Shown piece after piece: positions 37,932 to 39,625 of a DNA stretch of 39,625 nt. Made by a program: the position numbers and the translations under genes. The stretch is from contig JACNJF010000222.1 in NCBI GenBank assembly GCA_014382695.1, positions 1 to 39,625 on the forward strand. The letters are read 5' to 3'. Position 1 is the stretch's first letter. Each line of letters opens with the position of its first letter. The DNA comes from Gammaproteobacteria bacterium. Its GTDB lineage: Bacteria > Pseudomonadota > Gammaproteobacteria > GCA-001735895. The notes beneath the pieces are model-generated. The model searched no databases. It was not told where the DNA came from and worked only from the letters and a program-made list of their open reading frames with translations.

Positions 37932-38564
37932 TTAACCTTTTGTCGTAGGCCGAATAATGACATTACCACTCTTTGAACCGGGAACCGCACCTTTGATGAG
38001 GACCAGATTACGCTCCACATCTATACGATAGATTTCCAGATTCTGGGTAGTCTGTTTGACATCACCCATATGGCCTGACATCTTCTTGCCTTTAAATACT
38101 CTGCCAGGCGTCTGGTTCTGACCGATTGACCCAGGCACACGATGTGAACGCGAATTACCATGAGTAGCATCCTGCATATGGAAGTTATAGCGCTTAATAA
38201 CACCCGCATAACCCTTACCAATCGTAGTCCCTTGTACGTCTACCTTCTGACCCTGTTCAAAAATATCAACCTTGATTTCAGACCCGAGCTGAATATCTTC
38301 AACCGAATCAACACGAAACTCCGTTGCGAAACGACCAGCTTCAACACCAGCCTTTCTATAATGACCAGCCATAGACTTGGTCACTCGATTAGGGCGTCGA
38401 GTACCTGTAACCACCTGAACAGCAGAGTAGCCATCGTTATCTACAGTCTTAAGCTGAGATACACGATTTGGCTCAATCTCAATAACAGTTACCGCAGTGG
38501 ATACACCGTCATCAGAGAAAACCCTGGTCATACCTACTTTTCGTCCAACTAAACCGAGAGACAT
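37932..38564 (-). CDS. rplC: 50S ribosomal protein L3
   Basis: 210 residues, [20 protein letters not shown], and the tip loop [20 protein letters not shown] holding the glutamine methylated by PrmB in relatives. The ATG has AGGGG six bases upstream. A 204-base gap with a promoter and two hairpins separates it from rpsJ. Confidence 0.99.
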
Positions 38565-38589
38565 TTCTAACCCCTAATCATAACTTCTG

Positions 38590-38610
38590 GAAATATCTTA
38601 TTGATATTTC
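38590..38610 (-). promoter_or_regulatory. Hairpin just upstream of the rplC ribosome binding site
   Basis: GAAATATC (38590-38597) and GATATTTC (38603-38610) pair perfectly with a five-base loop. It lies about 15 bases before the rplC Shine-Dalgarno. It is A/T-rich and not followed by a T-run, so it is more likely a control or stability element than a terminator. Confidence 0.45.
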
Positions 38611-38629
38611 ATGTTTTTTTAAAACTAAC

Positions 38630-38657
38630 GGCCTGATACAGAGAACCGTATCAGGCC
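38630..38657 (-). promoter_or_regulatory. Strong hairpin at the 5' end of the rplC leader (possible attenuator)
   Basis: GGCCTGATAC (38630-38639) pairs perfectly with GTATCAGGCC (38648-38657), loop of eight bases. On the minus strand it is followed by GTTAGTTTTAAAAAAA, an imperfect T-tract. It would lie within the first nucleotides of RNA from the promoter at 38670-38698. It may be a terminator for tuf–rpsJ readthrough, an attenuator, or an L4-binding structure. Confidence 0.6.
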
Positions 38658-38669
38658 GCGAGGGCGCGC

Positions 38670-38698
38670 ACTATAACAGAATATTTCTGATTAGTTAA
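38670..38698 (-). promoter_or_regulatory. Promoter between rpsJ and rplC
   Basis: TTAACT (38693-38698) and TATAGT (38670-38675) on the minus strand are 17 bases apart, with a G/C-rich discriminator (GCGCGCCC) directly after. Matches are 4 of 6 and 5 of 6. The discriminator is typical of ribosomal promoters under stringent control. It would drive rplC and the rest of the S10 operon. Confidence 0.6.
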
Positions 38699-38768
38699 GA
38701 ACTATTATCGAAATACTTTCTGTTTTTTGATGCGCTAAAACCCTCTTAACATATAACCTGTTCAAGCC

Positions 38769-39080
38769 TTAATTTAACTTAATCTGAACATCTACACCGG
38801 CAGCCAGGTCGAGCTTCATCAACGCGTCTACCGTCTTGTCTGTCGGATCAACTATATCCATCAGACGCTTGTGGGTACGTATCTCGTACTGATCGCGTGC
38901 ATCCTTGTTTACGTGAGGAGAGATCAAAATCGTGAAACGCTCCTTACGTGTCGGCAATGGAATCGGTCCCTTTACACGTGCTCCAGTGCGCTTGGCCGTA
39001 TCAACGATCTCAGCAGCTGATCTGTCGATCAGTCGATGATCAAAGGATTTCAGTCGAATTCTAATGTTTTGATTAGCCAT
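38769..39080 (-). CDS. rpsJ: 30S ribosomal protein S10
   Basis: 103 residues, [40 protein letters not shown] and [20 protein letters not shown]. Also NusE, partner of NusB in antitermination. It lies five bases after tuf and 204 bases before rplC, so it appears to be carried by the tuf (str) transcript rather than heading the S10 operon. Confidence 0.99.
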
Positions 39081-39085
39081 AATTA

Positions 39086-39625
39086 TTACTCAAGTATTTT
39101 AGCAACAACACCCGCACCAACAGTACGGCCGCCTTCTCTGATCGCAAAGCGTAGACCTTCATCCATCGCAATGGGGTTGATCAGCTTTACAGTCATTTTT
39201 ACGTTATCACCGGGCATAACCATTTCTACGCCTTCCGGTAAATCACACGCACCCGTTACGTCGGTAGTACGGAAATAAAACTGTGGTCTATAACCATTGA
39301 AGAATGGTGTATGACGGCCACCTTCATCCTTTGACAGGATGTAGATTTCAGCTTCAAATTTGGTATGCGGTGTAATCGATTTAGGCTTGGCCAGTACCTG
39401 ACCACGCTCTACGTCTTCACGCTTGGTACCACGTAACAGCAGACCTACGTTATCTCCTGCACGACCTTCGTCCAGCAGCTTGCGGAACATTTCAACGCCG
39501 GTACAGGTGGTTTTCTGAGTAACGCGGATACCCACGATTTCCAGTTCTTCACCAACCTTAACAATGCCACGCTCGATACGACCGGTTACTACCGTGCCAC
39601 GACCGGAGATTGAGAACACGTCTTC
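39086..39625 (-). CDS. tuf: Elongation factor Tu, C-terminal part (5' end beyond the window)
   Basis: The frame is open to the right edge ([20 protein letters not shown]), so the GTPase domain lies outside. What is seen is domains 2 and 3: [40 protein letters not shown], and [17 protein letters not shown], ending [16 protein letters not shown]-Tu brings aminoacyl-tRNA to the ribosome. The ATG-like codon near 39619 is not the true start. Confidence 0.98.

Follow-up and report, generated by a model that had tools for sequence, protein, structure and literature searches.

Where does control of the S10 block lie when rpsJ follows directly on tuf and is separated from rplC by a long spacer? The question is raised by one end of a 39,625-nucleotide stretch of DNA from a gammaproteobacterial genome of 4.0 Mb in 238 contigs; we refer to this whole stretch as the window. 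Its minus strand reads tuf, 5 nt, rpsJ, 204 nt, then rplC-rplD-rplW-rplB and onward, and both the sequence and the ORFs agree with the initial annotation on these two spacings (Table 1).

Table 1. Features of the tuf-rpsJ-rplC region, in window coordinates.
Feature	Position	Strand	Basis
tuf (EF-Tu), 3' part, runs past window edge	39086..39625	(-)	ORF in window; Pfam tuf in genus-mate L300
rpsJ (S10), 5 nt downstream of tuf	38769..39080	(-)	ORF; Pfam S10 in genus-mate
-35 element TTAACT	38693..38698	(-)	consensus scan; TTAAC at spacer 17 in 25/26 family loci
Extended -10 TGtTATAGT (TATAGT 38675-38670, TGn ahead)	38670..38678	(-)	scan; family conservation
G/C-rich discriminator GCGCGCC; predicted start near 38663	38663..38669	(-)	sequence; conserved in family
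P1, 14-bp 5'-proximal hairpin, then TAGTTTTAAAA	38628..38659	(-)	scan, family comparison, covariation, model R2 58.3 bits
Second hairpin GAAAUAUC-AAUAA-GAUAUUUC, genus-level only	38590..38610	(-)	folding, model R1, genus comparison
rplC Shine-Dalgarno AGGGG; predicted pairing with the leader's pyrimidine 5' end	38571..38575	(-)	sequence; folding
rplC (L3), first gene of proposed unit rplC-rplD-rplW-rplB-...	37932..38564	(-)	ORF; L3 family

By scanning for promoter consensus elements, we found TTAACT-17-TGtTATAGT-GCGCGCC in the gap, with hexamers matching the consensus at 4/6 and 5/6 positions. The general scan alone shows no excess of promoters (7 found against 12.1 expected), and this promoter is convincing because it is conserved in the family. 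Indeed, the -10 pattern is present in 25 of the 26 family loci, all 25 with TTAAC exactly 17 nt upstream and with the TG of an extended -10, and the one exception, L009, is recognised by R2, a covariance model of the promoter together with P1. The discriminator also recurs, as nCGCGG or GCGCGC, in other families. The promoter with a G/C-rich discriminator that had been annotated in this gap is thus present and kept among relatives. Judged from its elements, it would start transcription near 38663, and its discriminator may place it under stringent control.

P1 follows this promoter, starting at about +5, and consists of 14 pairs including two G-U, closed by a UUCU loop (local z -8.3). It had been described as a perfect 10-bp stem at the presumed RNA start; the stem is there, but it is longer and not perfect, and the RNA start is a predicted one. 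Dinucleotide shuffling of the gap gave a stem of at least 14 bp once in 2000 trials, so P1 is not due to chance. Downstream of the promoter it is kept in the family loci with compensatory changes, for instance U-A to C-G. In the alignment, 90.4% of the cells are paired, double-sided changes affect 37 cells where shuffles give 12.4, and G-U pairs persist; the covariation over the 23 sequences is 0.386, compared with 0.219 in shuffles. The stem therefore covaries across relatives, a check that the initial annotation had proposed. Across loci, the loops measure 3 to 9 nt and the stems about 12 to 17 bp, and in most lineages P1 begins about 10 to 13 nt after the -10.

The model R2 was built from 23 sequences, with the window among them. 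As a member of this training set, the window scores 58.3 bits (E 3.1e-14) and shows the complete arrangement, that is a -10, a G/C discriminator and a covarying hairpin of 12-17 bp about 10-13 nt further on, before rplC. In the window's genome R2 has this one strong match, the next (E 0.14) being the same site on the opposite strand; as a single-copy element, P1 was rejected as a dispersed repeat. Within the family, 26 of 41 genomes are matched at E<=1e-4. L3 could be found in 26 of 36 family genomes, whose assemblies are fragmented, and 25 of these 26 have an R2 match; the exception, G034, has a partial L3 match. At class level, R2 matches 39 of 232 genomes at E<=0.01. The promoter with P1 is also present in a cultured relative, Halothiobacillus neapolitanus. 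Each of the 23 best-scoring loci (E<=8.6e-5) falls in the rpsJ-rplC gap, and 12 come from genomes that did not contribute to the model; the 7 weaker loci that were fetched lie outside this gap, and weaker matches without a fetched locus were left unplaced. A model-free test, which looked in rpsJ-rplC gaps of 60-800 nt for a hairpin of 8 bp or more no further than 20 nt downstream of a -10, was positive in 9 of 34 gaps (2 of these 9 with another hairpin type) and in 9 of 29 gaps of two sets, where shuffles predict 0.2 and 0.15; for family gaps, the figure was 18 of 22 against 0.45 expected.

Pfam-checked genes of a genus-mate give a str unit rpsL-rpsG-fusA-tuf-rpsJ, located behind rpoC. At the rpoC-rpsL junction (L300:4981-5056; L325), a 15-bp hairpin lies about 11 nt beyond the -10 of the str promoter (TTGACA-17-TAAAAT) and has, in the window's genus, a T tract behind it. 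Hence the family's str promoter has a layout like that of the rplC-gap promoter and P1, with unrelated stem sequences. None of 15 family loci showed the same layout before rplK or rpsB, and 3 of 8 showed a weak form (an 8-bp case) before rplM. We therefore rejected it as a general mark of all ribosomal-protein promoters, even though it is present before rpsL. The place of rpsJ in the str unit, together with the conserved promoter that splits rpsJ from rplC, supports the earlier proposal that S10 would be made with EF-Tu and that L3, L4, L23 and the following proteins would be controlled separately. As read from gene order and conservation, rplC very likely has its own transcription unit behind this promoter, S10 being made from the str operon.

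Closer to rplC, the second hairpin has 8 bp, a loop AAUAA and a local z of -3.3. Stems of at least 8 bp occurred in 764 of 2000 dinucleotide shuffles of the gap, so that taken alone it is within chance. A hairpin with changed stems occupies the same place in the 5 genus loci and is not kept in the sister genus g2. The 8-bp stem reported before the ribosome binding site is thus real as a sequence feature, but finds little support beyond the genus. Folding also predicts that the pyrimidine 5' end of the leader pairs with the Shine-Dalgarno region, in 7 of 7 folded leaders of genera g1 and g2.

In the E. coli S10 leader, CCCAU-CAAUCGUA-AUGGG lies ahead of rpsJ, and a hairpin of this type, with a loop CAAYYGNA and a changing stem, is found in the rpsJ-rplC gap of many loci. 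Aligning 30 such hairpins (alignment A2; 26 from gaps and 4 from pre-rpsJ leaders) gave 93.3% paired cells and a covariation of 0.859 vs 0.362, where only the outer pairs count as independent evidence because the sequences were picked by the loop and at least 4 inner pairs. A model of this hairpin (R1) found 26 places in 25 of the 232 class genomes, 24 of them between rpsJ and rplC (12 in genomes outside the training set) and 2 elsewhere; the E. coli site scores 29.0 bits and the other leaders 23-39. Promoter, P1 and CAAYYGNA hairpin follow one another in this order in L151, L156, L161, L105 and L072.

Many gammaproteobacterial families, and Alcaligenes too, carry the attenuator-type hairpin (CAAYYGNA) in their rplC leaders (e.g. 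L161:720-749, L151:1226-1255, L146:5315-5344). In one Alcaligenes locus (L138), no rpsJ was found upstream; rplC comes after an ABC-transporter gene, with the hairpin directly before it. In Woeseiaceae and one like genome (L065, L066, L070, L076), the rplC leader is long and includes a promoter, a 5' hairpin and, according to R1, two CAAYYGNA-type hairpins in each case.

Another element occupies the gap in pseudomonads. Part of 23S rRNA domain I, presumably the L4 site, is nearly copied between rpsJ and rplC in Stutzerimonas and Pseudomonas (L116:2935-2989, L131:2936-2984), and Rfam assigns both stretches to bacterial LSU rRNA positions 330-384 (E 4e-6). By sequence, the mimic is also present in Marinobacter, Gilvimarinus, Porticoccus and others, the Marinobacter locus L113 having no match in the same Rfam scan; the list holds 14 pseudomonad-type gaps, 11 identified by pattern and 3 by eye. 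Matches to Plastid-psbJ-5 and Pxr in L015 and to ctRNA and Leu_leader in L116 and L131 did not reach the gathering scores, and we regarded them as chance.

Does L4 act at the window's own leader, as the initial annotation suggested? That L4-type hairpins and the 23S mimic sit in the same gap in many relatives, and that the second hairpin is kept in the genus, would fit with L4 binding this leader and controlling the rplC unit. Nevertheless, R1 scores the second hairpin (38586-38614) at 4.1 bits and detects nothing convincing at the rplC leader of 24 other loci. These R1 results led us to reject the idea that the second hairpin is a degenerate form of the E. coli type, though its loop CAAUAAG looks similar by eye. 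Moreover, Rfam detected no LSU rRNA match in the window, nor in L001 at E<=1, and the second hairpin is absent from g2. By these sequence searches, the window keeps the promoter and P1 without a recognisable L4 site; control by L4 at this leader appears doubtful, and the suggestion is not supported.

Taking our observations together, we consider it probable that a separate rplC transcription unit begins in the gap, with P1 as its 5'-terminal hairpin. The sigma-70 promoter, with its stringent-type discriminator, would start an mRNA that carries rplC and the downstream ribosomal-protein genes, while the upstream str transcript would supply S10. P1, which relatives conserve as an RNA at a nearly constant spacing from the -10, would fold some 5 nt behind the mRNA 5' end and is most likely a 5'-terminal mRNA hairpin. 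Its job would most likely be at this end, where it might shield the mRNA from 5'-end-dependent decay rather than bind L4, and it would perhaps also hold the pyrimidine 5' end close to the Shine-Dalgarno. With about 5 unpaired 5' nucleotides, such protection may be incomplete. Also, rplC may be reached by read-through from tuf-rpsJ.

The main rival takes P1 as an intrinsic terminator or attenuator, which would end str transcripts after rpsJ and attenuate the rplC transcript early, possibly assisted by L4 and NusA as in E. coli. A scan classed P1 as terminator-like with TAGTTTTAAA, a T tract follows it in the window's genus and strong tracts are found in several relatives (GTTTTTC in L147, GCTTTTTTT in L161). 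In addition, the like hairpin with its T tract at the rpoC-rpsL junction, together with the scarcity of the layout before rplK, rpsB and rplM, places it at junctions between units. However, the T tract is gone in the sister genus g3 (GCGTTCGAAA), L049, L162 and L191 while P1 and its distance from the -10 remain, and a plain terminator needs no fixed distance behind a promoter. Termination at P1 is thus possible but, in our view, rather unlikely; since it overlaps with the existence of a separate rplC unit, the likelihoods that we give to the two need not add up to certainty.

As a near-perfect inverted repeat directly downstream of a promoter, P1 might also be a DNA palindrome recognised by a transcription factor. 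Yet its loops and stems vary in length between loci, and double changes that keep G-U pairs favour an RNA over a DNA operator, which makes this reading very improbable. Even less credible is that ordinary spacer harbours chance hairpins with no separate unit: 8-bp stems are indeed common in shuffles and the general scan shows no promoter excess, but conservation across genera and families and the covariation speak against it.

How general the separate rplC unit might be can be judged from gene order across the class, in a tally that left out family records, repeats of the window and L141-L145 and whose two record sets may share genomes. In the 107 records with tuf no more than 400 nt from rpsJ, 52 rpsJ-rplC gaps measure at least 60 nt, and 38 records have at least one of the three elements in the gap. 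Gaps shorter than 60 nt were found in 10 of 11 records with tuf further from rpsJ and in 34 of 44 in which tuf was not seen. In E. coli, Serratia, Winslowiella and Sodalis, the attenuator-type hairpin is ahead of rpsJ, as is a weak promoter-P1 match in Alteromonas (L119, E 0.0015) and Pseudoalteromonas (L115, E 0.0028). The three elements are missing from most records in which tuf is linked but the gap is short, so the arrangement is common but not universal. These counts support the view that, across the class, S10-operon control elements (promoter, P1, attenuator hairpin, 23S mimic) stand before rplC when tuf adjoins rpsJ, and before rpsJ in E. coli, other Enterobacterales and, by the weak match, Alteromonas. 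Relocated S10-operon control, as proposed for this DNA, is therefore well supported for the class, except that the window itself has no recognisable L4 site.

The sister genus g3 has about 150 nt in its rplC leader that match a dispersed, MITE-like multi-hairpin repeat (L262:1501-1602; L263-L271), with many copies in other genomes and GGA in hairpin loops; Rfam had no match for it, and we rejected this extra leader as a ribosomal-protein-specific RNA because it matches the repeat. One of its hairpins is nearly invariant in 17 loci, which suggests that the repeat may have been captured for regulation. By eye, the str (rpsL) leader of another genome (G021; L301:190-520) appears to contain a reversed copy, and the window's own genome has three matches outside the window (G000:C130:55824-55927, G000:C214:2815-2917 and G000:C28:107-217).

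We tentatively propose, as a scenario that may well prove wrong, that control of the S10 block moved to, or was originally at, the rpsJ-rplC junction in many gammaproteobacteria with linked tuf and rpsJ. There, L4 would act through the attenuator-type hairpin or, in pseudomonads, the 23S-site copy, S10 thus being free of L4 feedback and governed by the str operon. In the window's lineage, the promoter and 5' hairpin would have been kept but the L4 site replaced, and g3 would have captured the repeat as a new leader. Our survey suggests that S10-block control should be sought before rplC, not rpsJ, and the open question of what controls the largest ribosomal-protein operon beyond the enterics becomes directly testable with simple reporters. 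If this holds true, S10, which is also active in transcription antitermination, would be uncoupled from the rest of its operon. Judged by title and abstract, none of the papers in the literature searched describes an rpsJ-rplC gap with a promoter, an L4-type hairpin or a 23S mimic; key older work lies outside that search and an earlier description is possible.

Compared with known systems, P1 resembles the 5'-terminal stabilising hairpin of ompA mRNA in being a strong stem near an mRNA 5' end, which for P1 is a predicted one. The 23S domain I mimic that we found in Pseudomonas, Stutzerimonas, Marinobacter, Gilvimarinus and others occupies the same gap upstream of rplC, where the window lacks an LSU-rRNA match; work by Stelzl in 2003 reportedly places an L4 site in the 23S rRNA region of the mimic. 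In Archaeoglobi, an L4 leader candidate upstream of rplC is listed with a question mark as its motif rating (Eckert et al. 2020, PMC7247131, Table 1); this archaeal candidate and the window's leader both precede rplC and are likened by position, not by sequence. The E. coli S10 leader, in which stem D is described as needed for L4 and stem E as the attenuator hairpin (PMC10578931), precedes rpsJ, unlike the window's leader, and has an E-type hairpin that the window lacks; conversely, R2 did not find P1 in the E. coli stretch. In both, a promoter heads the same gene block, the E. coli discriminator being GCGCGG. Finally, the hairpin with the loop CAAUCGUA, which from its position would correspond to stem E, has its attenuator-type counterpart in the rplC leader of the window's relatives.
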